A DNA stretch of 64,000 nt, taken from Gigantopelta aegis (Eukaryota > Mollusca > Gastropoda > Neomphalida > Peltospiridae). Of this stretch, positions 3,001 through 60,472 are shown in pieces. A model generated the notes under the pieces. That model searched no databases and was not told where the DNA came from. It was given only the letters and a program-made list of their open reading frames with translations. The translations under genes were made by a program, and so were the position numbers. Where the stretch lies: assembly GCF_016097555.1 (NCBI RefSeq), contig NC_054701.1, forward strand, positions 4,596,890 through 4,660,889, written 5' to 3'. Numbering within the stretch: position 1 is the first letter of the stretch; every line of letters starts with the position of its first letter.

Positions 3001-5514
3001 TGACAACTTTTTTTTTACTAGCCATCGGGCATGGTAACAGTAGTTATTTACTAGCCCAACGTTGAATATCACTAGCCACGGGAGTGGAGCTACCATAATC
3101 TAGAAGCCCTGTCTGGCATGGTAACAGTAGTTATTTACTAGCCCAACGTTGAATATCACTAGCCACGGGAGTGGAGCTACCATAATCTAGAAGCCCTGTC
3201 TGGCATGGTAACAGTAGTTATTTACTAGCCCAACGTTGAATATCACTAGCCACGGGAGTGGAGCTACCATAATCTAGAAGCCCTGTCTGGCATGGTAACA
3301 GTAGTTATTTACTAGCCCAACGCTGAATATCACTAGCCACGGGAGTGGAGCTACCATAATCTAGAAGCCCTGTCTGGCATGGTAACAGTAGTTATTTACT
3401 AGCCCAACGTTGAATATCACTAGCCACGGGAGTGGAGCTACCATAATCTAGAAGCCCTGTCTGGCATGGTAACAGTAGTTATTTACTAGCCCAACGTTGA
3501 ATATCACTAGCCACGGGAGTGGAGCTACCATAATCTAGAAGCCCTGTCTGGCATGGTAACAGTAGTTATTTACTAGCCCAACGCTGAATATCACTAGCCA
3601 CGGGAGTGGAGCTACCATAATCTAGAAGCCCTGTCTGGCATGGTAACAGTAGTTATTTACTAGCCCAACGTTGAATATCACTAGCCACGGGAGTGGAGCT
3701 ACCATAATCTAGAAGCCCTGTCTGGCATGGTAACAGTAGTTATTTACTAGCCCAACGTTGAATATCACTAGCCACGGGAGTGGAGCTACCATAATCTAGA
3801 AGCCCTGTCTGGCATGGTAACAGTAGTTATTTACTAGCCCAACGTTGAATATCACTAGCCACGGGAGTGGAGCTACCATAATCTAGAAGCCCTGTCTGGC
3901 ATGGTAACAGTAGTTATTTACTAGCCCAACGTTGAATATCACTAGCCACGGGAGTGGAGCTACCATAATCTAGAAGCCCTGACAAAATTAATTACTCTTG
4001 TCATTACTGTATGATTTTCTCAACCCTAACCCTAAACGTAATCCATTTTCTTTCTGGGAGAGGGCCCCCATACCCCCTCATGACTGTGGTTCTATTCAAT
4101 TCCATAGCGCCATACCCAAACAAAAATATCTGGCAGAAACACTGCACTTGGATAACACTACTGTCAATGTGATACATGTATTGTTTATTTTTGTCAACAG
4201 ACTACTTCGGAGTTCCGAAATACGCAAGCACAAAATACCCAAAACAGAGCCGGTCAAAAGTCAATGCTTCCTAAAAATAGCTTATTTATGTTGATAGTAT
4301 GTTGCCAGTGTGATTGGAATATATTGTTCTGTTAAATAATTGAAAGATGTCACTTGAATTTTGTAAATCTATCAGTGTTCGAGATTAAAATTTTTGGCCA
4401 ATATCCCAGTTGGATACTAACATTTCAAAATCTGGTATCCCACCTGAGAATTTAGTATTAAATATGGTATCCCGGTGGGATACTGGGTTCTTGAAGTCTG
4501 GTATCCAAAATTAAATTCTGGTATCCCTGGGATATCGGGATACCGTTAATCTCGAACACTGTCTATATGAAAGAAATGTGATGAACTTCATCATTACCAG
4601 AATAATAAAACTTTACTGATTTGTCAAACAAGGTTTGGGTCTTGATTTTACTTGCCACTTGATGTTGATGACTTACCAAATGTCTTTATTAATGTTTTTG
4701 TCAATATATTATATTATATTATTATTAAACAATAAAATATATAGTTCCATAGGCTGGCAGACTACTAGACATTCTGGCCGTCTAGTACATTTTAGTTGGT
4801 TCTGGTCCGGCAGGCTAGTGAAATATTTTCTGCACCAGTGAAGACTAATACCATACATATACTTGTTTTTATTCAAATTAATATCTAGTTTTATGTATTG
4901 TTTTCAAAATTAGAATTATTTACATTAATTGGGAATTTTTTACTCAAATTTTTTGAATAAAAACGACATAGCTTTTGAGGAATGGTGGGGATGGGTGCCA
5001 ATTATTTGAGTCTAGAAACATAGGTGATAAAACCTTGAATAAATGAGTAAATTGCCATGCAAGTCCAACTTGATTTGTAACACTACATCATAAAGCTATA
5101 CACAAAATTATTCCTCAATATACTGATGCAATACCAGAAAAAAAAATCAGAAAAACTAAATTATATATCCTAAGTGAAAAATGGATACATGGCCACAAAA
5201 GTCAAACTTAATCTGTAAAAATAATAAACCTAATAAAGCTATACACAAAATTTCAACTCAACAAGGCATTGTGAAAAAGAACATCGGGGAAAACTGTGTG
5301 TGGAACTGGACGACGGAGATAAAACCACTAGTCCCCTCCAGTTGGACCGGTAGGGGTCTAATAAGTATAAAAGTAGACTACACTCATAAACCTGTATGTG
5401 ACATCTCGTAGTATAAGAGCCATTTTTCACTAACACACACAAATAGTTGTAGCCACTCCCAACAATGCTGCACTTACTCTGGTTGTGATTCGTGTGATTC
5501 TTCGACTTGGCCAT
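8..5514 (-). CDS. RPL29: 60S ribosomal protein L29 (eL29), three coding exons
   Basis: Structural protein of the large ribosomal subunit. Coding exons on the minus strand are 5478-5514, 1416-1480 and 8-112. The first reads MAKSKNHTNHNQ, the eL29 N-terminal signature. The second reads AHRNGIHKPKSY and ends MKG. The third opens VDPKFLKNLKFSRKHNKRG and ends with a Lys-rich tail and TAG. Donors are GTAAGTG and GTGTAAG/GTAAGT, acceptors TTTCAG, and phases match at both junctions (phases 1 and 0). The total is 68 residues, the short length usual for invertebrate eL29 (mammalian forms have a long C-terminal extension). A TTTCAG acceptor just upstream (exon starts at 5545) implies a further 5' noncoding exon that I could not locate. 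The coding introns are about 1.3 kb and 4.0 kb and hold SINE, MITE and 87 bp satellite DNA. The 3' UTR runs off the window. Recognition is firm. Confidence 0.93.
1741..2051 (-). mobile_element. tRNA-headed SINE (type B), in RPL29 intron
   Basis: Read on the minus strand it begins with a tRNA-like head (a wobbled version of the 'accactgggttacgt' head, then GGATCGATCC as B-box-like sequence). It continues through the conserved core (AGCAAGGGCTCTTTTTTATGC, GGAAACCCGC) and ends in the tail near 1741. At least six relatives lie elsewhere in the window. It is diverged and interrupted by A/T runs, so it is an old copy. Confidence 0.75.
2318..2459. mobile_element. Fold-back MITE, 142 bp near-palindrome
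   Basis: The two ends are inverted copies: GGGCCCGTGCTTATAAA at the left and TTTATAAGCACGGGGCC at the right. The inner arms (AAAGTCTGGACTTTA type) also pair, leaving a short loop around 2385. No coding capacity. It would fold into one long hairpin if transcribed. Confidence 0.75.
2688..4142. mobile_element. TIR element (GTTTCTGCCAGA ends) carrying the 87 bp satellite
   Basis: The left end reads GTTTCTGCCAGA and then GGGTATGGCGCCATACCC. The right end reads GCGCCATACCCAAA and then TCTGGCAGAAAC, the inverted complement of the left tip. A truncated relative lies at 60646-60830, inside the Ty3 integrase region, and a lone right-end-like sequence at about 25415-25432. The long reading frame at 3998-4294 falls wholly inside this element and is taken as non-coding. 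No target duplication was recognised. Confidence 0.65.
3027..3981. repeat. Tandem repeat, 87 bp unit, about 11 copies
   Basis: Nearly identical units containing GGCATGGTAACAGTAGTTAT, ACTAGCCCAACGTTG and TAATCTAGAAGCCCTG. Copies differ by single bases (CGTTG or CGCTG), so the expansion is recent. It lies inside the GTTTCTGCCAGA TIR element in an intron of RPL29. The unit grew from sequence with recurring 'ACTAGCC' words seen just upstream at 2787-2850. Confidence 0.95.
4373..4561. mobile_element. MITE with CAGTGTTCGAGATTAA TIRs
   Basis: The left end CAGTGTTCGAGATTAA and right end TTAATCTCGAACACTG are perfect 16 bp inverted repeats. TCTAT flanks both sides, a 5 bp target duplication. The interior repeats the word GGTATCCC. 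The CAG...CTG termini and 5 bp duplication fit a short-duplication hAT-like group. No coding capacity. Confidence 0.8.
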
Positions 5515-24000: not shown

Positions 24001-24231
24001 ATTAGCCTTGAGCTGTATCATCAGGATTCATGAATTTTATCGATTATTTTTGCACCGTTAATTGTCAACAACGTGAAATTCAATTTGGCCGTCCATGCAT
24101 GGTTCGACATGTCCCGTGTAGTATTCGGTCAATTTGTTTTACTTGTCTTACTGACATTGTTGTCAAGTGAACGAAAACGCTTCAAAATTTGTAAAAAAAA
24201 AATAACGTTTTTTACATGTAGCATTTTTAGT

Positions 24232-25171
24232 ATGCCAAGAATATCCAATAATTTACGCGAACGGGCGATTGGCATGCTTGATGCTGGCATGTCGACAGAA
24301 GACGTTGCAAGGCATGTTGGGAGTTCTAGTCGAGCGATACGAAATCTTCGCGTAAGATTTCGAACGACAGGAAGCACCAACGACTTGCCACGTCGTGGAC
24401 GTCCGCGTGTTACAACGCGTGGTCAAGACCGCTATATCATGAACACGCATTTGCGCAATCGATTCCAAACTGCCACTGTTACTGCTGCTAACACACCTGG
24501 GCTTCATAATAACCGAATCAGTGGGCAAACTGTTCGCAATCGTCTGCGGGAGAACGGTTTAAATGCACGACGTCCTTACGTCGGATGCGTTTTAACGCAA
24601 TGTTATCGATCGTCTAAATCGTCTTAATTGGGCACGTGTACACACTCGTTGGATATGGCGACGCTGGAATATCGTTCTTTTCAGGGATGGGGGTTCTGTC
24701 ATGGTCTGGGCAGCCATTGCTCATGGTTATCGTTCACCACTAGTCGTCACTGATGGCAATTTAAATGCTCAACGTTACCGCGATGACATTCTCGCTCATC
24801 ACGTCATTCCTCTGTTCCATAACAACGCCAACATCTCGATTTTTCAGCATAATAATGCCACCTCTCATACAGCTAGAGACACTGTAAATTTTCTTAGGAC
24901 AAATAACATTGATTTCATTGATGACTTGCCCGCTAAAAGTCCTGATCTCAACCCCATCGAACATGTCTGGGATAGTCTGGACAGACGATTGAGGCGTCGT
25001 CCCAACCCACCCGCTAATGTCAACAAACTTCGTCAAGCGCTCATTCAGGAATGGAACAATATTCCACAGGCAGAAATCAATACTTTAATCAATTCTATGC
25101 GCCTGCGATGCACTGCTGTGGTCAGTTCAAGAGGTGGTCATACCCGTTATAATTTTTTTTTTTTTTTTTAA
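24232..25171 (+). pseudogene. Tc1-type transposase, frameshifted and catalytically broken
   Basis: The first part (from MPRISNNLRERAIGMLDAGM) has the paired-type helix-turn-helix DNA-binding region, then GRPRVTTRGQD. The frame is lost near 24590. The second part has VMVWAAI, then FQHNNATSHTARD and SPDLNPIEHVWD. The family's DDE/D triad normally has a first Asp in an 'SDES' motif, a second in 'QQDNA' and a third residue in 'SPDLNPIE'. Here the segment with the first Asp is deleted, the second Asp is Asn, and only the third motif is intact. The left end of the element probably lies in the N gap. Non-functional. Confidence 0.9.
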
Positions 25172-28783: not shown

Positions 28784-31084
28784 CAGGGCCGTACCCTGAC
28801 CAAAATCCATGGGGGGGCACTAAATTTTATAAATAATTTTTAACATACTATAAAGATTAAATCTGGACCTTTTCAGGGCCGTACCCTGATCAAAATCCTA
28901 GTTGGGGGGGGGGGGGGGGGCACTACTTTTTATATATAAAACAAATTGTGACTTGTCCAAGAACGCGGAACCTTTTAGAAGTCCGGGGCATGATTTCCTG
29001 ACATGAATTACAAAATTGACCAATTTCCAACAATAAATTTAAACAACTTCAATGATTATTTGGCAGAGTATTGTAACCCGATTTTTTAAAATTATTATTT
29101 AAAGGACTCGTAAAGTTAGCCATTTTCAAACGGTGACTTTAGTTATCTTGTAGGATTTTATAATGCAAGAAGGGTTTAGATGAGTTGGGACATGACGTTG
29201 TTGGATCTGAATTACTATATTATTTTGGAGGGCATTATTAAATTTAGGACGGCACTTAGGGTCAAGTCTAAGATGTTTTTTTAAAGCTGCACTCTTAAGC
29301 TAAACAGACTTACTGTGACAACAATCCGTCAAGCTAAACAGACAAGTGTTTTTTTTATTTCGAAGTCTAAATAGACAAGTGGCAGTATGACGTCATGAAT
29401 TCAAATTCCAAAGTTATATTCAATTTCTGATAGCATGATATAGCAATCGGTTTTTTCCTCTCCAAATAATTGCAGGTTTGTTTGATTTGTATAGTAAATG
29501 TAGGACATTCCTGAAGAATCTGATGTGTAGGTCATTCCTGTAAGATATGTCAGGTAGATACAGCTCTTGTTTCGCAATGTCACATATTGAGTTTGTGGTA
29601 TAGGTGACATTGAAGCACATTGTGTTTTTATTGCAGTTCAGTATTGTACATTTGTTACAGCTGTAGTACATTAATTTAATGAGCTAATTGGCTCCAGTTA
29701 CATTTTGTAGAGTATATCTGTTCTGGGCAAGGAATGTATGGTGTGTTCCGATGGCAAAGAAGCATAGCTAGTCCACTAAGGCGATCATGGGCCATACTTG
29801 CTCTGGTCCACAATTTCAAGCGCCTTAGTGCTGAAAATGATCTTTCACATGCCACACTGCCAACAGGAGTAGTGAGGAATATCACCAGAATTCGGTGAAT
29901 TGCTGGGAAATACACTTTGTTGCAGGCTGCCAAAGTGGTACAACCATCCGCTGGTCTGGACTCTACTGGAGTATGTTGGAACAAGTGTTTCCACTTCTCT
30001 ACTTCAACTTGAAGATACTCTCCCCGTTTCAGAAATTTCGAATAGTATTCATTTATTTTGGCCATGCATGTTGGTGTAAGATGTTCCAAATTCACGGGTA
30101 CGAGTGCTTCAGTTATACGTAAATGTCCTGTTTCCGATTTGTTTCAAGATTTGCCGAGTCTGTCATTTAAGATACACCTTGTCAGTTTCGTCCTACAAGT
30201 GTTGTGGCACAAAACATTTCAACACCTGCTTTTTCCCTGACTAAATTAGTTTGGATGGGGCAGGGGGTGTTGAAAAGTATTAGAGGGTTATTCCTTTAAG
30301 GAGAAGTGATGACATTTTTAGACAGTCCCTTAGCGTTCGTGAACACGTGTCGGTGAACGCAGTTTTGACAACGCATGCCTTGCTGCAACTTATGTGCACG
30401 CATTTTGTTTCTGGAAACGATTCTGTAGGAATACAGCTATATTAACTCACCTCATTACAACAACAAAAAAACACACACAAAAAACCACTTTTATATTATT
30501 TTATAATAGTAGGGACAGTAGTAGTAGGGTCTATTAAGATGATTAGGCAATATACAATCAGCATTAATTTTATTATTCAACTGAACACATCGTGTCCGTG
30601 ACATCGATTGTGTCAACATTAATGCAAATGGTAATTTTTCAAGACTTGACAGCAACTTACCTTGTTGATTTGTGAAAAAAAGACGATACACTTTGTTGTG
30701 TGTATCTCTTTGCCTTCTTAGCGCTCGGCGCATCAGAAATTGGAGAATTGGACATTGCCATTTTAGATTTTGTTTCCGTTATGCATTTCCTGTTCTATTT
30801 TTAGCGCGTTTGTCTCGATATACAGTATTATTATTTAATATGGACGGTCAGAGACCTGTAGCCGTATAACATATTATAACCTCTAGAATATTACCTGAGC
30901 GTATGACATACAAAATACAGGGAATTAAACACTATACAAATTAAACCCTGACATTTCTATGCTATTACTGGAGATATATATATAAAAAAAAAGGACAAGA
31001 TTCTCAGGAAAGGGGGGGGGGGGCAGCTGCCCCCCTGCCCCCCCCCCCCCCCCCCTGCCCCGCCCCCCGGAGGGTACGGCCCTG
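28784..31084 (-). mobile_element. hAT-superfamily element with CAGGGCCGTACCCT termini
   Basis: The left end CAGGGCCGTACCCTGACC (28784) and right end GGAGGGTACGGCCCTG (to 31084) are inverted. GCGGT lies directly outside both ends (28779-28783 and 31085-31089). A second copy of the left tip is at 28876, so the subterminal region is duplicated. G/C tracts sit just inside both ends (28905-28920, 31009-31055). The interior carries a split transposase gene on the minus strand. Confidence 0.7.
29676..30761 (-). pseudogene. hAT transposase, first and last exons with the middle missing
   Basis: Exon 1 (30661-30761, minus) starts AAAATGGCAATGTC and encodes MAMSNSPIS... then KRYTQQSVSSFFHK, the 'xSSFF' opening usual in ZMYM/52-kDa-repressor-type hAT proteins. 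It ends at a perfect AG/GTAAGTTG donor. The C-terminal piece (29676-30095) has VEKWKHLF, VGSVACERSFSALRRLK and DRLSGLAMLLCHR, the hAT dimerisation domain. The roughly 560 bp between holds none of the several hundred catalytic-core residues, so the copy is internally deleted. It could at most encode a short dimerisation-domain protein. Confidence 0.75.
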
Positions 31085-31258: not shown

Positions 31259-32041
31259 TTATCCTCCAATAATAATCCCTGGATGATACGAGTAATCTTT
31301 CGCGTTCACAGCTCTCTCGTACATGGCCAAAGCCAACGCCCCGGCAACGATAGCCAGGATTATCGAGACTATGATGAGTCGCTCAGCGCGTGTGACATAC
31401 TTGATAGCTAGGTCAATGTTCCCTTGCAGAAGACCTTCATCAAACGCCTTCTTCGTCTTAAATGCATAATAACAGGCCGGGATTCCGGTAGGGAAAAACA
31501 TCACAGCCGCGATAACTGAAAATATTTTGATGAAGGTGATCCGTCTCGCTCGGAGCGGACGCTGAAACTGTCGACCGCGCTCAGGTATTGCCCGAGTCTC
31601 AATCGTCCTTGACCCGTCCGGAAGCGTCGTCATGACCCTCTCCTGGAGAACGACGTTGTGACCTCCTCTGTTGTCAAACACCACTGGCCGTGAAATAGAA
31701 ATACTGGTGTCTGCGTCAGTGGTGCCGTCTTGGACGCATTTCGCGTGGTCTAGGTTAGCATTCCCGTCCAAGTGGCTGCTGCCATTTTGCTGAAAGTTTT
31801 CGTTAGGCAGAGGGTCTGCTGACGATTCCTCGAAAGCCGCGTTCAAGTGACCATTGCCATTTTGCTGAGAGTGTTCAGAAGGTAGAGGGTCCGTTGATGA
31901 CGCATCGAAAGCTACGTTCACGTGACCTGCGGATACCATATCGGCAAAGTTGGATTCAAATTTCAAATCTCTGCTAGTGTCAAGGTCATGTGAGTCGCTG
32001 GCGACAAGATGGCTGACATCGTGCGATTCTCGATCTGCCAT
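31259..32041 (-). CDS. CD225/dispanin-family two-pass membrane protein 1
   Basis: A 260-residue frame on the minus strand. I start at MADRESHD because TTTTGTGTTCAG/A directly precedes that ATG, a good acceptor; the in-frame upstream Met would lie in the intron. The N-terminal 160 residues are polar and contain two degenerate repeats (AFDASSTDPLPSEHSQQNG / AFEESSADPLPNENFQQNG). Residues about 161-243 form the CD225 domain: TM1 with FFPTGIPACYYAFKTKK, a loop (NIDLAIKYVTRAERL) and TM2. The family includes vertebrate IFITMs (restriction of virus entry), PRRT and synapse-associated dispanins. Orthology cannot be told from sequence. A paralogue lies 20 kb away on the same strand. Confidence 0.88.
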   Translation of the reverse strand: MADRESHDVSHLVASDSHDLDTSRDLKFESNFADMVSAGHVNVAFDASSTDPLPSEHSQQNGNGHLNAAFEESSADPLPNENFQQNGSSHLDGNANLDHAKCVQDGTTDADTSISISRPVVFDNRGGHNVVLQERVMTTLPDGSRTIETRAIPERGRQFQRPLRARRITFIKIFSVIAAVMFFPTGIPACYYAFKTKKAFDEGLLQGNIDLAIKYVTRAERLIIVSIILAIVAGALALAMYERAVNAKDYSYHPGIIIGG

Positions 32042-33774
32042 TCTGAACACAAAACAAAACGAAACAAATATTAAAAGTAGATACAGAATGAATATATGAA
32101 ATATTTAAAGTTGCAAAACGCTAAAACATTGAACATTCAATTCTCAAATTGCTTTCTATATATTTTTGCTAACCTGCCTGACAAATAATACCCTTTTAGT
32201 CGTTCTTTGTTAAAAGTAGAGATGATTTTTGTAAATTATGTAGATTTACCAATAATATTATATAGAGAAAACACACGAGTTTAATTTAAAAAAATGTAGC
32301 TGTGTTTGTATTTTACATTGTGCAAAAGAAACTGCAGATTGACATGTTATAGTATAATGTGAATAATGTTAAAAAGTAATTGATCATTATATATTTAAAT
32401 AAATTATTTAATAATCACGAAGAACGGGTGTGCGGTCCTACACCGAGTTATATAATTGCCTAGGAAAAACATCTGCACAAGTGTTTTTATTATTAATCCA
32501 TTGCGTATTTATTCTGTAGTTCAACGTTTTCATTCCCGTTTTACCTAACAGAAACTAAAACTCGTCATTACAAACGCACATTAATGTGACACGCAGTGTG
32601 TACAAGTGACACGTGAGCCGGGTATATGAAGATAGATATCTGAGAGATGTCATAATAAGACACGGGGATATCACCAACTGTTTTTTTTAATCTGTACATA
32701 ACATGCTAGGTGTAACACGTGCCACCTGTATAAGCAATCAATCTGCGTAAAGAGAAAACGATATTGGACATGGATATCACTATCATTTCAAATGTAATTT
32801 TTAATGAAAAATGTTTATCAAGACATATTACTATAAAAATATCAGCACATTGGAATTAAAGAATTGTTTAATTGTAATAACGTTAAGTGTACCCTCTGGA
32901 ACTTCAAAATTCATTCCTGAAATTAGCAACATTCAGTAAATCGCAGATCTATACACTATTCCCAATACTACTAAATACTATGTTAAGTCTTAACTCATAA
33001 AAATCTTAATATTATATTTGGTCACTTCTTGTCATCAGGTATCCCCTTAAAGTAGTGTGTAGTTATGACATACCATCAATGTATAGATTAAACAAGGTAA
33101 GACACAAGACACGACAAGACAACACAAGACATTTATTCGGTTATTGAGACCACATGACCAAGAGAACTACTTTTAATACATAAAAAGAAGAAGATTAAAC
33201 AAAGAATTGTTAAGTGTCCTGTTTTTCCCATGTAAATATTCGTTGTAAAAACGTCCTCATATATGATGTCGTCTAAAGGCGTTTTATGTGAATCGGATGA
33301 TTACACGACATAAAATCGACATTTTTGTACAATGATAAATATTATATACTTAGTATGTTACAGGGTACAGGAGAAAGAGAAAACGAATTAATCAGATTTA
33401 TGTCCGTGTAGTATGGGACATGCACTTGTAATTATTGATAACAACTCGCGGCAAGTTTATTATTTATTTGACATACCAGACGTTACAATAGCATTCTAGA
33501 AATGGAAATGAAGCTGGTGAAACTGTGTCGCTGAAGAAAATGTTGAACTGTGATCATCATATTTATAGTTCGTGACATCTGGACAGATACCACAATACAC
33601 GGCGCTGTTGAATTCGCCAACACTGAGTCATGACCACATTAATCGGTTGGAAATCAGTAGCGCGTTCACAAAAACAAAAAAAGGAATATTTGTGTAATGT
33701 CAACACAGAACATTTTAAACAATACATTTTTGGCATGTAACATATGTTTATGTCCACACTCGGACGACGGAGAT

Positions 33775-35869: not shown

Positions 35870-36216
35870 AGACAGGGAGACAGACCGACAGAGAGAAACA
35901 GAGTCCAATAGAGGGGGAGGGGGTAGATAAAAATGTAAAGATACAGAAAGAAAGAAACGAAAAGACAGACTAACAAAGAAAACAGGAGACAGACAAAGAG
36001 AGAGGGAGACAGAGAGACAAAGACAGGGAGAGAGAAAAACAAAGAGAGGCAGAGTGAGACAGAAAGAAACAGATATACAAAGAGAGAGGGAGACAGAGAT
36101 AGACAAAGACATATACAGACAGACACATACATACATACAGACAGACAGAGAGACAGAATGTAAAATACAAAAAGACAGACTAACAAAGACTAACAAAGAA
36201 ACAAGGAGACAGGGAC

Positions 36217-41999: not shown

Positions 42000-42407
42000 C
42001 TAAAGCCGAAAACATATTAAAATATACTGGTAACAAGGTGAAATCATCGGTTAAACTTGTACCACTGGTCTGATGGTGATGTTGATTCTATCGTTAGCGG
42101 AAATGTCACCTAATATTTTGAGCTGTTGTGGAATCGAAACAATGATTATAGAAAAACAATAAACCAAGATAATTAAACTTATTAACAACTTCTAACTGAT
42201 TTCCGTTGTAAAACCATACTTCATTATTTCGTATTTCCCTATGTTTCGAAAATTAACAATCTTATCCGTGTTGACAGTTAAATTTCATTTTACGGTATAA
42301 TTTGATAGTGAAGTGAGCATTGTTTGTATCTGACGTTTGTGCTAAAAGTACCATATCATCGACATACAATAACATTAATAAAAATATAGTTAGCATCTGT
42401 ATTTCAT

Positions 42408-42802
42408 ACCGGCCTCAGTGGCGTCGTGGCAGGCCATCGGTCTACAGGCTGGTAGGTACTGGGTTCGGATCCCAGTCGAGGCATGGGATTTTTAATCGAG
42501 ATACCGACTCCAAACCCTGAGTGAGTGCTCCGCAAGGCTCAATGGGTAGGTGTAAACCACTTGCACCGACCAGTGATCCATAACTGGTTCAACAAAGGCC
42601 ATGGTTTGTGCTATCCTGCCTGTGGGAAGCGCAAATAAAAGATCACTTGCTGCCTGTCGTAAAAAGAGTAGCCTATGTGGCGACAGCGGGTTTCCTCTAA
42701 AAACAGCGTCAGAATGACCATATGTTTGACGCCCAATAGCCGATGATAAGATAAAAAATCAATGTGCTCTAGCGGCGTCGTTAAATAAAACAAACTTCTT
42801 CT
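42408..42802 (+). mobile_element. Type A SINE inserted beside the LINE's YVDD motif
   Basis: Full tRNA-like head (GGCGTCGTGGCAGGCCATCG), core and tail. TCTGTATTTCAT flanks both sides (42396-42407 and 42803-42814), a 12 bp target duplication. Confidence 0.95.
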
Positions 42803-42845: not shown

Positions 42846-43234
42846 TTAAAGGGACAGACCCTAGTTTGAACCCGTGAAATTTAACACTACGTTTAGTTAA
42901 TCTACAAAACTGTAACACATTTGGATACAATTTACAAGTTACAATTAAGTGAAACATGAGCCTGTGACTATGAAATGGTGAAATACCCTCTAAAAATAGA
43001 CTAAAACTCGACTCCCATAACTGTTACTTCTGAGACGCACGTGCGTTTTTAAAAATATGAGAAATGTCTTCTGTGGTATTAAAAACACCAGAATGACCAA
43101 AAAACACTTCGAATGTACGGAAATGGCTAATCTAAACCATAACATCTGAGTAAAGTATGATTTCAGTTATTAAAAACGGCTATAATAGTAAAAAATATGC
43201 CTTAGTGTTTAAAAACTAGGGATATATCCCTTGA
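42846..43234. mobile_element. TTAA-type MITE inserted in the LINE
   Basis: The left end TTAAAGGGACAGACCCTAGT and right end AACTAGGGATATATCCCTTGA are inverted. LINE reverse-transcriptase sequence continues on either side. Confidence 0.75.
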
Positions 43235-43566
43235 ACTCATTTACATACATAGAAAAAAGTATATGATGATAGAACTTCACCTTCACCGTTCTTACATATA
43301 CAATAATCAGAGAGTATATTGCAAGCATGTTCCCCTCCACACCCTGTTTAATTAATTTATACCATAGGTTTTGCCTACTTACATAATCAAACGCTTTCTT
43401 GTAATCTATAAAACAGCAATACAATTGTTTACCTTTCTCCAATGTTCTGTTAACAAGAGTTTGTAAAATAAAAAACGGCGTCAATAGTTGACATGTTTTT
43501 AAAACCAAATTGTGCATCCGTAATAATTTTGTTTTCTCTCAGAATAATCGAGCAGTAAAATGTTTG

Positions 43567-45717
43567 CCTAACCAGCTGACTATGGCGATATCTCTATAGT
43601 TATCTGTGTCATTAACATTTCCCTTCTTAAAAACAGGAACAATACAGACAGTGGACTATGACGATACCTCTATAGTTATCTGTGTCGTTAACATCTCCCT
43701 TCTTAAAAACAGGAACAATACAGACAGTGGACTATGGCGATACCTCTATAGTTATCTGTGTCGTTAACATGTCCCTTCTTAAAAACAGGAACAATACAGA
43801 CAGTGGACTATGGCGATACCTCTATAGTTATCTGTGTCGTTAACATCTCCCTTCTTAAAAACAGGAACAATATAAACAGTGGACTATGGCGATACTTCTA
43901 TAGTTATCTGTGTCGTTAACATCTCCCTTCTTAAAAACAGAAACAATACAGACAGTCTGTGTCGTTAACATCTCCCTTCTTAAAAACAGGAACAATACAG
44001 ACAGTGGACTATGGCGATACCTCTATAGTTATCTGTGTCGTTAACATTTCCCTTCTTAAAAACAGAAACAATACAGACAGTGGACTATGGCGATACCTCT
44101 ATTGTTATCTGTGTCGTTAACATGTCCCTTCTTAAAAACAGGAACAATACAGACAGTGGACTATGGCGATACCTCTATAGTTATCTGTGTCGTTAACATC
44201 TCCCTTCTTAAAAACAGGAACAATATAAACAGTGGACTATGGCGATACTTCTATAGTTATCTGTGTCGTTAACATCTCCCTTCTTAAAAACAGAAACAAT
44301 ACAGACAGTCTGTGTCGTTAACATCTCCCTTCTTAAAAACAGGAACAATACAGACAGTGGACTATGGCGATACCTCTATAGTTATCTGTGTCGTTAACAT
44401 TTCCCTTCTTAAAAACAGAAACAATACAGACAGTGGACTATGGCGATACCTCTATAGTTATCTGTGTCGTTAACATTTCCCTTCTTAAAAACAGGAACAA
44501 TACAGACAGTGGACTATGGCGATACCTCTATAGTTATCTGTGTCGTTAACATGTCCCTTCTTAAAAACAGGAACAATACAGACAGTGGACTATGGCGATA
44601 CCTCTATAGTTATCTGTGTCGTTAACATTTCCCTTCTTAAAAACAGAAACAATACAGACAGTGGACTATGGCGATACCTCTATAGTTATCTGTGTCGTTA
44701 ACATCTCCCTTCTTAAAAACAGGAACAATACAGACAGTGGACTATGGCGATACCTCTATAGTTATCTGTGTCGTTAACATGTCCCTTCTTAAAAACAGGA
44801 ACAATACAGACAGTGGACTATGGCGATACCTCTATAGTTATCTGTGTCGTTAACATCTCCCTTCTTAAAAACAGGAACAATATAAACAGTGGACTATGGC
44901 GATACTTCTATAGTTATCTGTGTCGTTAACATCTCCCTTCTTAAAAACAGAAACAATACAGACAGTCTGTGTCGTTAACATCTCCCTTCTTAAAAACAGA
45001 AACAATACAGACAGTCTGTGTCGTTAAAACAGGAAAAATACAGACAGTGGACTATGGCGATACCTCTATAGTTATCAGTGTCGTTAACATTTCCCTTCTT
45101 AAAAACAGAAACAATACAGACAGTGGACTATGGCGATACCTCTATAGTTATCTGTGTCGTTAACATGTCCCTTCTTAAAAACAGGAACAATACAGACAGT
45201 GGACTATGGCGATACCTCTATAGTTATCTGTGTCGTTAACATCTCCCTTCTTAAAAACAGGAACAATATAAACAGTGGACTATGGCGATACTTCTATAGT
45301 TATCTGTGTCGTTAACATCTCCCTTCTTAAAAACAGAAACAATACAGACAGTCTGTGTCGTTAACATCTCCCTTCTTAAAAACAGGAACAATACAGACAG
45401 TGGACTATGGCGATACCTCTATAGTTATCTGTGTCGTTAACATTTCCCTTCTTAAAAACAGAAACAATACAGACAGTGGACTATGGCGATACCGCTATAG
45501 TTATCTGTGTCGTTAACATTTCCCTTCTTAAAAACAGAAACAATACAGACAGTGGACTATGGCGATACCTCTATAGTTATCTGTGTCGTTAACATTTCCC
45601 TTCTTAAAAACAGAAACAATACAGACAGTGGACTATGACGATACCTCTATAGTTATCTGTGTCATTAGCATCTCCCTTCTTAAAAACAGAAACAATACAG
45701 ACAGTGGACTATGCATG
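43567..45717. repeat. Satellite, 76 bp unit, about 28 copies, derived from LINE RT
   Basis: Unit CAGACAGTGGACTATGGCGA TACCTCTATAGTTATCTGTG TCGTTAACATCTCCCTTCTT AAAAACAGGAACAATA. The minus strand of one unit encodes KKGDVNDTDNYRGIAI, the conserved motif of non-LTR reverse transcriptase. Several units carry the same internal deletion (GACAGT directly joined to CTGTGTCG), and variant types (GGAACAATATAAAC, TACTTCTATAG) recur in the same order, a higher-order repeat. Confidence 0.95.
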
Positions 45718-46017
45718 CGGGAAATTACCAGATTCAAAAACATTATTAAACATTAGCACAAAACATGGCATTAATTACATCGTTGCAGTTGATAAAATAT
45801 TAGTTTAAAATATTATCATAGCCGTTGGCTTTATCCTTTTTCAAATTATGTATAGCGTTTGATATCTCCTGTTCGGTGATGCTTCCATCTAGCGGGTTAA
45901 CAATAGTATCGCCTGATACCTGATAATAATCAGAAAAAAAAAAATTCAACTTGTTTGTTATTGATTGGTTCTTTAGTTGCCGGTTTACTAAAACGATTAG
46001 GCCAAAACAAAAAAGAA

Positions 46018-46195
46018 GTTTGTTTCAGGTAACATGGCCAAAAAAAGTAGGGTAGGTAGGTAGGATTTTTTGTCGATCCGTGACCACAACTTCTCTGTGC
46101 GCTCCCCCCCCCCCCAACCCCACCCCACCCCAGGAAAAAAAAAAGTTCAGGGTCGGTGGCAAAATTTAGGGTCGGTCGGGTGACCGGAAACAAAC
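46018..46195. mobile_element. MITE with GTTTGTTTC ends
   Basis: The left end GTTTGTTTCAGGTAACATGG and the right end (minus strand GTTTGTTTCCGGTCACCCGA) are inverted. C tract 46106-46116 inside. It interrupts the LINE. Confidence 0.6.
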
Positions 46196-46900
46196 GATTT
46201 TTTTTTTTTTGGCGTTAAGAAAGTCATCATTACCCGGGTCAGATTTCATACTTTTTCGTTTTTGGAATTGTTTGTAAAAGTGTTTAGTATTATATTATCC
46301 AATAGTTCAACCTATAGCCTTGTTGGCATTTGTATTCTCGTCTCAATTTTGCTTCTAATTTTTATATTATATGTATTATATATTTATGTGTATTTTTTTA
46401 AACACATATAATCTCAGCACGGTTATCATTTGTTTTATTACTTTTGATCATCCGGATTGCATTTTTATACTGTATGTATCGTTGTTGACAAGATTCGTTT
46501 AACCACTGTTTATTGTCATCTTTAAGTGTGTGGTGTGATTTTCCTCTCGATCAAATGTTGTGTGTGGTAACAGAACAGTATGGTAGAATAATATCATTTA
46601 GTGTTTGAGTGAATGTATCAACTGATGTATTTCTACTGCCTATGCTACTCTCATTTATAATACACATATGTAATAGCACTAATTTTATCTGCATTATGTT
46701 TCCTATTCTACATTACATTTGTTGTATGATCTTCAGATATATTATCGTTAATACATTAATTAATGAGACAACCAACATTATATATAATTTCTGAATGATC
46801 TGACAAACAATTGAACTTGCCCGACTCAAAATGCCAGCTAAGATCAAAGTTGTCTTGATTAACTAAAACAGTCTTTAAGACTGGTATCGTTTGCATTATA

Positions 46901-47580
46901 AACAGTTATGTTACCGTTTGGATCTCCAGAATGTCTACCATTGACACAGCAATCGTTGTTTCTTCTATATGTGTCCATGTTCTTCTCTTGTTATTCAGGT
47001 GTGGTTTAGTGTAACACCTAAAACAAATACAGACGCATTGTGAAGCATTTGCGTGGGTCTGTCGATGTACAGTTTCCAGCCAACTCTTCATATCATACAA
47101 GAGTATGGTGAGGTACCTGACACACCAGTGAAAAGTAGGTCGTGGTGACCCAGTTTTACTATGCAACACACCGCCATTCCAAGTTGTTTAATAATAATCC
47201 GTTATTTAATATGTAACGGTATATTGGCTTAATTTCTATACTCGCAATGTGATTGTCAAAATATGATCAATAATATTAATAATGAGTTGATTGCATGTCG
47301 ATCTAAATCGACTTTATAGCCTACGTTGTGTCCTCGGTAACCGATAGCAAGTAGCTTCGATCGTGTGGGAACTCTAAACGTGTAATTCCCTACATTGATT
47401 CCAGGCTTTTGTTTCTTTCATGTCGTCTCTTCATCTTTCTTTTTTTTATCTTATTAAAGGGTTTGTTTTTTTGCTCTTTTTTTTGTGGCATTTATTATTT
47501 TATTTTATGTTATTTTTTGGTGGGGTTTACGAGAGATGAGGTTTTTGTTAGGTTTTTTTTGTTGTTCTTGTTTTTATTTA
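46901..47580. other. No gene seen
   Basis: Possibly the 5' part of the LINE up to about 46960 (GDPNGNITVYN on the minus strand), then T-rich sequence. The 47409-47798 frame is low complexity. Confidence 0.4.
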
Positions 47581-51886: not shown

Positions 51887-52297
51887 TTACAAAGAATTTA
51901 TGACGTCATCGTAAACTGTAACGGCAAAATCTTTCATTTCCTTGAGTTTCTCCCACATGGCCAGTGACACCGCCCCAACGATTACTGCCAGAAGCACCGA
52001 ACATATCACCAGGCGTTCGGTCAGTATGGAATACTTTATAGCTAGTTCAAAATTGTCTTTCAAATCTCGGTCGTAGAATGTCTTCTTCGTCTTAAAGGCG
52101 TAATAACACGCGGGGATTCCGGTTGGGAAGAAGAGGACTATGGCGATGAAGGAGAAGATGATAAGGTAGGTGATTTTCTGGGCGTGCAGAGGCCGGTGGA
52201 ACGGTCGACACCGACACACGATCAGCTGGTCGGGTTTCCGCGGCACCCATCTCTCCTTGAGGATGATCGGTTTGATCTCGTCTGGTGACAGGGGCAT
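51887..52297 (-). CDS. CD225/dispanin-family two-pass membrane protein 2
   Basis: The frame from ATG at 52297 encodes 136 residues (MPLSPDEIKPIILKERWVPR...). An upstream in-frame GTG is not used. The juxtamembrane FHRPLHAQKIT matches FQRPLRARRIT of the first gene. FFPTGIPACYYAFKTKK is identical in both, followed by LAIKYSILTERLVICSVLLA (TM2) and a polar tail. It lacks the long repeat-bearing N-terminus of gene 1, so it is either a short paralogue or has upstream coding exons I did not find (a weak CTAG acceptor is 10 bases before the ATG). Same strand as gene 1 and 20 kb away, consistent with tandem duplication followed by repeat insertion. Confidence 0.82.
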   Translation of the reverse strand: MPLSPDEIKPIILKERWVPRKPDQLIVCRCRPFHRPLHAQKITYLIIFSFIAIVLFFPTGIPACYYAFKTKKTFYDRDLKDNFELAIKYSILTERLVICSVLLAVIVGAVSLAMWEKLKEMKDFAVTVYDDVINSL

Positions 52298-52572
52298 TGT
52301 CACTTGTCTAGCCGTTCACACAAGGAAATCAACGTTTTTTCCAGGCCGTGTTTTCCCAAAGTGGCATACCCTTTCAAATTCCATGCGTCATTTTGTTGGT
52401 TTGTTGGTAACTGCACTTCACCTACATTCACGTGACACATTGAGACCGTATCTGCAAAGTGGAATTAAAAATTTAAAGAGCATCCATATAGTATCGACTG
52501 TATTCAAACGATGTTTATCATAAGCCTATAACATGGCGCATGATAGAGGCTATTAACGTAGAAATATTGACC

Positions 52573-58267: not shown

Positions 58268-60472
58268 ACAACCTATTATTGTCCCGGTGCATTATTAGAT
58301 TCTAGTAGTTCAATTAATTTGGTCTCAGAACACTTTTACAGATCATTACCCAGTGACTGTTGTAGATATATACCAAATACTTTATGTAAAATTACAGTTG
58401 CAAATAATGTTGAGGTCCATATTATTGGATTGGCTCAGCTTAAATTGCAAACTCCAAATGGAAAACATGATATAACTGTTTTATGTGATGAGGGATACAA
58501 GTCATCCTTTAATCTTTGGTACTACCTTTTTAGCTAAGAAGAGAATCTCATTAGATTTTCAGGATTGTAAGTTTCAGCAGTCACGGATCCGAATTCGTAA
58601 GGTTACCATACCAACCAACACAGAAATGGTGATATGGGCTAACGTTAGTTCTAAACTATCCAGGATTACAGGGCCAAATACTAGTCTGTGCAACATTAGT
58701 AATATTGTAACTGCAAAAAAACCTTGTTACTATTGGTCATGATAGCAACGTGCCTGTTAAAGTATGTAATCCCATTGGTGAGCCGATTACTCTTCCTAGA
58801 AGTACAATGTTAGCCAAGTTTAATAAGCTAGGGGAAAATTATGTTTTTCATTATCCGGTAAACCAAATCAATGTGTGTGCTCATGTTCAGGTGAATACAG
58901 GTACTAAAGTGCAGGAATTGGGGTGTATCTGTAAGTGAAAGTTCCAACGGAAACCAAAAAGATTTTGAAATATTTTGTGACAATTTTGACTTTTCTGGAG
59001 ATTCATGTAATGTATCTCCTGAGCAAACTCTTCGTATGAAACAATGTTTGTATGCCAATAAACAAGTATTTATGACCAAGAAGAATACTAATTTAGGTCC
59101 CACTAATTTGGTAGAACATCATATTCACTTAAAGCCGGATGCACAGTCAAAGCATCAACGTCCGTACCTGTCTTCCACCTCATAAGCGTCAAGTGTTAAG
59201 ACATCAGCTGGAAGAACTTGTGAGACAGGGTATTATTGTTCTTGTTAGCGAGAAAGAAGACATTCCAATAAGTAGTCCTATTGTCCTTGTTGGAAAACGT
59301 AACAAAAACAAAAATCTTCAGCCAACACCAAATAATTCAATTTGACATATCGATTTTGTTGTGATTTCCGGTTTTTAAATTCGCAAACTCAGGCTTTTAA
59401 ATACCACATTCTGGATTTGCAAGAATTAACAGATTATTTCAATGAAACATGTCCAAATTATATTTTCTCTTTCGACCTTAGTTCAGGATTCTTCCAAATG
59501 TCCATTTCTGACGATTCATCGAAATATACTGCCTTCAATACCTGCCTTCAATACCTTCAATACTTGTTTTGGGACATATACTTTTTTGAGATTGCTAATG
59601 GGTTTGAAGACATCGCCAAGTTCATTTCAATTGTTGATGAATAAAGTGTTGAAAGGTTTGCCGGTTCGATCTGTATTGTGTTATATTGACGATGTTGTAA
59701 TATTTTCTGAAACATTTGAACAGCATCTGATAGACTTGCAGATATGGTTTGATCAGTTTAAAAGTGCAAATTTGAAGTTGGGTCCCAAAAAGTGTTCTTT
59801 TGCTCAACAAAAATGTATTTCTCCCGAGATGGTATTCGACCGCCTTCTGATAGAGTTCAAGCTGTTAGAACATATCCAGTACCTCAAAATGTTGGTGATT
59901 TGAGGCACTTTATTGGATTAATGAATTGGTTGATTGTTACGAATGAATACACCTTTTATTTGGGATATGGAACATGATAACGCTTTTGAAATTCTAAAAA
60001 GACATTTGTCTGAATGCGAAGCTTTGGCTTTCCAAAGGTATAACTTGCCATTCACTCTAGTAGTTGATACTTCCAGTCGTGGGATTGGTTATTTGTTGTA
60101 TCAAGTGTATCCTGAATGTGAATTCTCAGTTGGAACTAAAGAACGGTTACGTACCAGAATTATACGGTTTGGTTCCAACTCGTTAGCGAGCTGGAACTGC
60201 TTGGTGTCGTTGACAGTATTTTGGTTTGTGCAGGATATCTTCGTGGAACACATTTTACTGTAGAATGTGATCATCAAGCTTTACGTCCTTTATTTCAGAA
60301 GAAAATAAAAGGTGCAATCTATGAAAGGTGGATGGCAATACTACAGCAATTTGATTTTGCAATTAAATATAAAGCGTGTACGGAAATGAGTGTGCCTGCT
60401 GCTTTTTCTCGGTGCCAACCCCCATATGTACTAGAAGATAGTCCGGATGAAGATACTTTCCCTATGTTTTAG
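58268..60472 (+). pseudogene. pol remnant: protease, reverse transcriptase, RNase H
   Basis: Successive frames show the aspartic protease region (GALLDSSSSINLVSEHF; the usual DTGSS/DSGSS Gly is Ser), then RT with FSFDLSSGFFQMSISDDSSK and LCYIDDVVIFSETFEQHL (the YxDD box, intact). RNase H landmarks follow: LVVDTSSRGIGYLL and HFTVECDHQALRPLF. At least five frame breaks (near 58530, 58740, 59340, 59550, 59930). Non-functional as it stands. Confidence 0.88.

Follow-up and report, generated by a model that had tools for sequence, protein, structure and literature searches.

A 76-bp minisatellite of reverse-transcriptase origin, probably born in place within a single decayed LINE copy of Gigantopelta aegis

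The window analysed here, by which the whole stretch of 64,000 bases is meant, contains a tandem array whose unit corresponds to a segment of the reverse transcriptase (RT) code of a LINE, and the LINE is found on both sides of the array. The preferred reading, to which a probability of about 0.88 is assigned, is that a single, dead LINE copy gave rise in place to this minisatellite, which may have been seeded by a mutation that completed a short direct repeat, CATAGTC.

The array and the LINE that carries it

Tandem Repeats Finder (TRF) called a tandem array at 43578-45713 with a period of 76 bp, which was split on the minus strand into 30 similar units running head to tail from plus-strand coordinate 45704 down to 43576. 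There are 15 distinct unit sequence types, and the full units (n = 25) differ pairwise by 3.8% on average and by 9.2% at most. The RT code carried by the unit is STVCIVPVFKKGDVNDTDNYRGIAIV; the array read on the minus strand is translated as ...FKKGDVNDTDNYRGIAIV, and one minus-strand frame of the consensus unit gives VCIVPVFKKGDVNDTDNYRGIAIV. No further copies of the array were detected within the 64-kb window by self-BLAST. The initial annotation had described a 76 bp satellite. The array and its 76-bp unit are real, but 5 of the 30 units are shorter, and, because it measures 2.1 kb and has one known locus, the array is classed as a minisatellite, satellites in the strict sense forming long arrays at several loci with a high share of the genome. 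The array and the surrounding parts of the LINE are located as follows.

43576..45704, minus strand: minisatellite array derived from the LINE RT, 30 units (25 of 76 bp, 4 of 49 bp, 1 of 33 bp)
45622..45999, minus strand: 5' LINE flank, the N-terminal part of RT entering the first unit (L040 RT residues 2-107 at 45940-45622)
43237..43655, minus strand: 3' LINE flank, the last unit entering the RT palm (...FIDYKKAFDYV...; L040 RT residues 82-198 at 43646-43317)
46220..46945, minus strand: endonuclease and linker of the array-bearing LINE copy, decayed
46000..46219, no strand assigned: about 220 bp inside the LINE, without counterpart in the relative L012, in which the LINE sequence of either side is nearly contiguous
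42133..42405, minus strand: C-terminal part of RT, 44% identity to L040, probably of the same LINE copy

The array-bearing copy starts at about 46945. The stretch at 46000-46219 is probably a later insertion into the LINE, as judged from the comparison with L012; homopolymer runs are abundant in it. The C-terminal part of RT is separated from the 3' LINE flank by two dispersed repeats, one at about 42855-43236 and the other, which is SINE-like, at 42402-42797.

That the unit derives from the RT code of a LINE and that LINE sequence lies on both sides of it, as had been claimed from the letters alone, is borne out by the translation of the unit and by the relatives of this copy. RT is colinear on both flanks and lies on the minus strand like the array: L040 RT residues 2-57 map at 45940-45773, residues 57-107 at 45774-45622 and residues 82-198 at 43646-43317, so that about RT residues 82-107 make up the segment that was expanded into the array. 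Taken singly, the RT pieces of the window are too decayed for domain assignment (RVT_1, E 0.012, below the Pfam cut-off; R2 RT, E 0.83), whereas the pieces from both sides of the array, put together, give a match to R2 RT with E 4.5e-6. Five open reading frames (ORFs) from the relatives L018, L027 and L040 were also tested against domain profiles, and four of them match RVT_1, with E values of 8.8e-23, 7.9e-17, 1.4e-14 and 1.9e-4, the last of which falls short of the cut-off (81.5 bits for L018:2741-3229, 62.1 and 54.7 bits for L040, and 21.6 bits, under the cut-off, for L018:2257-2733). L040 matches the LINE-1 ORF2p of solved structure (E 3e-14), and an ORF of L027, which aligns to the window in three pieces at 46945-46407, matches Exo_endo_phos_2 (E 5.2e-10). 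Both domains of a non-LTR retrotransposon, RT and endonuclease, are thus recognized through the ORFs of the relatives. Divergence between the LINE flanks and their five closest relatives amounts to 10.5-12.1%.

With respect to coding capacity, the unit length of 76 is not divisible by 3, so that the frame shifts with each 76-bp unit, and TAG stands where consensus units join. The 12 variable unit sites are distributed 4:4:4 over the codon positions, variable columns 75 and 76 being excluded from this count because they hold flank sequence in unit O. As read from its sequence, the array is untranslatable, and a coding function is ruled out by the frame shift, the junction stops and the even spread of the variants. 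That the array is retained for its protein or RNA, as a selected repeat, may be thought of because the RT stretch is still legible within single units; with the frame lost at each unit, stops at the junctions, variants indifferent to codon position and a decayed LINE all around, such retention is extremely unlikely. No cellular function is proposed, and the array is taken to represent neutral sequence turnover.

One whole or partial unit at each outside site examined

The genome of the same animal (1.15 Gb, 5216 contigs) was searched at the DNA level with 434 bases of the array. At least 45 matches were obtained, 6 within the array and 39 elsewhere (best 40 of 73 candidates scored), with none of the outside matches among those scored being longer than 98 bp. 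All 39 outside places were retrieved and inspected. Each holds one whole or partial unit, with a match of 37 to 74 bp, so that the monomer corresponds to a transposable-element (TE) segment that is single at every one of them; in two cases an additional unit fragment is found beside the single unit (27 bp in L012 and 13 bp in L021). Tandem arrays of the unit were found at none of these places, which number at least 39 (best 40 of 73 candidates scored). RT lies on both sides of the unit at 35 of the 39 and was found only downstream of it at the remaining 4 (L017, L024, L025 and L026). A pattern spanning the unit junction, allowed up to 3 mismatches, gave 26 matches in 1.15 Gb, 25 of which fall at the array (24 between units and one at the 5' flank), the other being the equivalent place of an ordinary LINE copy, L011.

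These results bear on two further explanations. According to the first, the array belongs to a LINE subfamily as an integral internal repeat and was spread by retrotransposition, as its position inside the LINE and in the orientation of the LINE could indicate. An array is, however, present in 0 of the 39 or more places (best 40 of 73 candidates scored), and the genome holds no second junction array at up to 3 mismatches, the lone outside match being the ordinary copy L011; furthermore, with a period of 76 bp and TAG at full unit junctions, RT would be destroyed. With no array at the 39 places and 25 of the 26 junction matches at one locus, the array was rejected as a feature of a LINE subfamily, and an origin of this kind is regarded as very unlikely. 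According to the second explanation, a pre-existing satellite was inserted or transferred into the LINE. Arrays of another family, with an 87-bp unit, are indeed dispersed in this genome, but the unit of the RT-derived array is the LINE's own missing segment, colinear with both flanks, and no junction array was found outside the locus in 1.15 Gb at up to 3 mismatches, so that insertion, too, has a very small probability.

Birth of the array in place is, in contrast, strongly supported by the comparison of these loci. The initial annotation had advanced it, and had named the array occurring widely without LINE flanks as the sign of an independent origin; such an occurrence was looked for in the 39 outside places and with the genome-wide junction pattern and was not found. 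The search for the same array in other LINE copies likewise gave none among the 39 outside places.

Variant order and the putative seed of the first duplication

In minus-strand order, the unit types are A B C B D E F G H I J E F G K B G L B D E F M B D E F G N O. In all four instances, a 49-bp unit (D, J, D and D) precedes E, F and either G or M, which differs from G by one base. The longest repeated string comprises five units (B D E F G, found twice), and B D E F is found three times. When the labels were shuffled, a repeated string of five was obtained in 3 of 20,000 trials and the observed count of repeated trimers in 0 of 20,000. TRF also reports a period of 353 bp for the array. The recurring variant order had been read earlier as a sign of higher-order amplification, and the fourfold recurrence of the block formed by a 49-bp unit, E, F and G or M, together with the shuffles, supports it. 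The array is not a regular succession of one higher-order repeat, since the block starts are 6, 9 and 5 units apart.

The copy number was taken from one assembly, and the assembly is also the whole of the evidence, as would be compatible with an artefact in which a few true copies were over-expanded. The 15 unit types, the deletions and the edge units form, however, an ordered pattern that is unlike the plain duplication of one read end, and the artefact is considered unlikely.

For the preferred birth in place, an order of events can be proposed. All 25 full units carry T at unit site 4 and G at unit site 66, states found in none of 8 close relatives, which have G (7, and one gap) and A (8) at the two sites, respectively. 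Being fixed in the full units and missing from the relatives, both changes are older than the amplification. Unit O, at the end of the array and adjoining the 3' flank, shows 3 differences from the relatives' majority, as does unit L, while the other 23 show 4-6. An edge unit with older states fits an expansion from the inside of the array; the 5' edge unit A, with 6 differences and no ancestral-like character, counts against it.

The boundaries of the array suggest how the first duplication may have been seeded.

45705..45713, minus strand: putative seed boundary on the 5' side, reading CATAGTCCA and lying in the LINE flank, where the TGG codon of 10 of 16 aligned relatives is TAG, completing CATAGTC
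43578..43584, minus strand: second (3') CATAGTC of the 7-bp repeat pair, at the end of the last unit and next to the resumed LINE flank

The two copies of CATAGTC form a perfect 7-bp direct repeat at a distance of 76 bp. In the 16 aligned relatives, the boundary Trp codon is TGG in 10, TAG in 2, TGA in 1, TGT in 1 and gapped or unaligned in 2, and CATAGTC is present at the first site in none. The two 7-bp sites agree at 7 of 7 letters in 0 of the 16 (two of which lack the full letters) and at 6 of 7 in 4 of the 16. The relatives L020 and L021 have TAG at the boundary codon and no array, from which it follows that the stop alone is insufficient. Direct repeats of 7 bp at 40-120 bp from one another arise by chance, but they are few: 72 were counted among 200,556 position pairs in array-free flank.

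By taking these observations into account, a G-to-A change would have turned the Trp codon TGG into TAG, completing the CATAGTC repeat 76 bp from its partner, and slippage or microhomology-mediated repair between the two copies would then have led to the first tandem duplication. The array may afterwards have grown by unequal exchange or more slippage, a 27-bp deletion, with only 1 bp of microhomology, may have generated the 49-bp unit, and a 353-bp block of about five units may have been recopied several times. Since the unit boundary includes the stop codon, the source had probably ceased to code by the time of its duplication, and the TGG-to-TAG change would also mark this LINE copy as dead. 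The seed mechanism is plausible rather than proven; alternatively, the 5' TAG could have been copied from the array into the flank by gene conversion, instead of preceding the array.

Other arrays and known systems

With a period of 20-100 and at least 3 copies, 12 arrays were found in the window, covering 6461 of its 64,000 bases (10%); one of them, at 35963-36109, is low-complexity sequence. A wider sample of 40 pieces (232,639 bases), chosen non-randomly around LINE copies and analysed with slightly wider array limits, contains 24 arrays. For 2 of the 24, a lower bound, spanning single-unit sites are present in the sample, namely for the RT-derived 76-bp array and for a 54-bp array in L009; for the other 11 arrays of the window, the 232,639-base sample contains no spanning empty sites. 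In L009 (755-1409), a 54-bp segment is repeated 12 times (655 bp) inside a SINE-like repeat of the same family as that at 42402-42797 of the window, with element sequence on both sides. As in the RT-derived array, an interior segment of a dispersed element was multiplied in place, the element being SINE-like instead of a LINE.

A 65-bp tandem duplication (x2) lies in the LINE ORF region of L015 (3338-3468), and it is possible that it represents the earliest stage of array birth. An 87-bp tandem unit is common to arrays at 3028-3981 of the window, L014 1353-1529, L015 1108-1545 and L016 3692-4215; these arrays are dispersed, near three LINE relatives, and belong to a family that did spread. As a tentative generalization, rated at somewhat less than even odds, this genome may continually form arrays inside dispersed elements, with the x2 duplication of L015, the x12 array of L009 and the x30 RT-derived array with its block re-amplification lying on one path, the first step of which can be a single base change completing a short direct repeat.

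Known systems provide several terms of comparison. According to a review (PMC9659126), any part of a TE may serve as a source of satellites, and those related to ORF2 include HinfI (chicken; CR1, 3' UTR and partial ORF2), PROsat (Phodopus roborovskii; LINE-1 ORF2) and Pvc 20 (Phoca vitulina; LINE-1 ORF2). Like the RT-derived array, they are tandem repeats with LINE ORF2 sequence. In the description of the same review, however, they are named repeats of their genomes, and in PROsat only a small region is similar to ORF2, whereas the present case is a single 2.1-kb array inside its source copy and with known empty sites. The Ogre-derived satellites of Lathyrus sativus (PMC7004042) resemble it in that short arrays embedded in a retrotransposon are the starting point of satellites; they differ in that their LTR element carries them downstream of gag-pol and that they recur across its copies, the RT-derived array occupying a coding segment of one non-LTR copy. 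The Helitron-associated satellite DNAs of oysters are likewise TE-linked tandem repeats, but they are central repeats of the elements and spread with them (PMC11136912), whereas the RT-derived array was found in one copy only. Further TE-derived arrays are described in PMC6947457 and PMC7004042.

It had been held that satellites derived from coding sequence are rarely caught inside their source. In view of a second in-source array (in the SINE-like element), the 12 minisatellites of the window and the ORF2-derived satellites tabulated in PMC9659126, such rarity is not supported, and the array is a clean example of an already described process. A published report of the RT-derived 76-bp array itself was not found in the literature searched, which covered few subscription papers. 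The value of the locus lies in the fact that the array can be seen together with its source and the empty sites, so that an order of birth (point mutation, duplication, expansion, deletion and block re-amplification) can be proposed and tested, making it a usable model for the beginnings of satellites in a genome as rich in minisatellites as the window shows.

Other features of the window comprise two ORFs with a CD225 (interferon-induced transmembrane-type) domain, in keeping with an animal genome, at 31259-32104 and 51887-52315, both on the minus strand, as well as remains of a Tc/mariner-type transposase (24034-25171, plus strand; HTH match just under the cut-off), of a hAT dimerisation region (29676-30143, minus strand) and of an RT with RNase H (59430-60472, plus strand).
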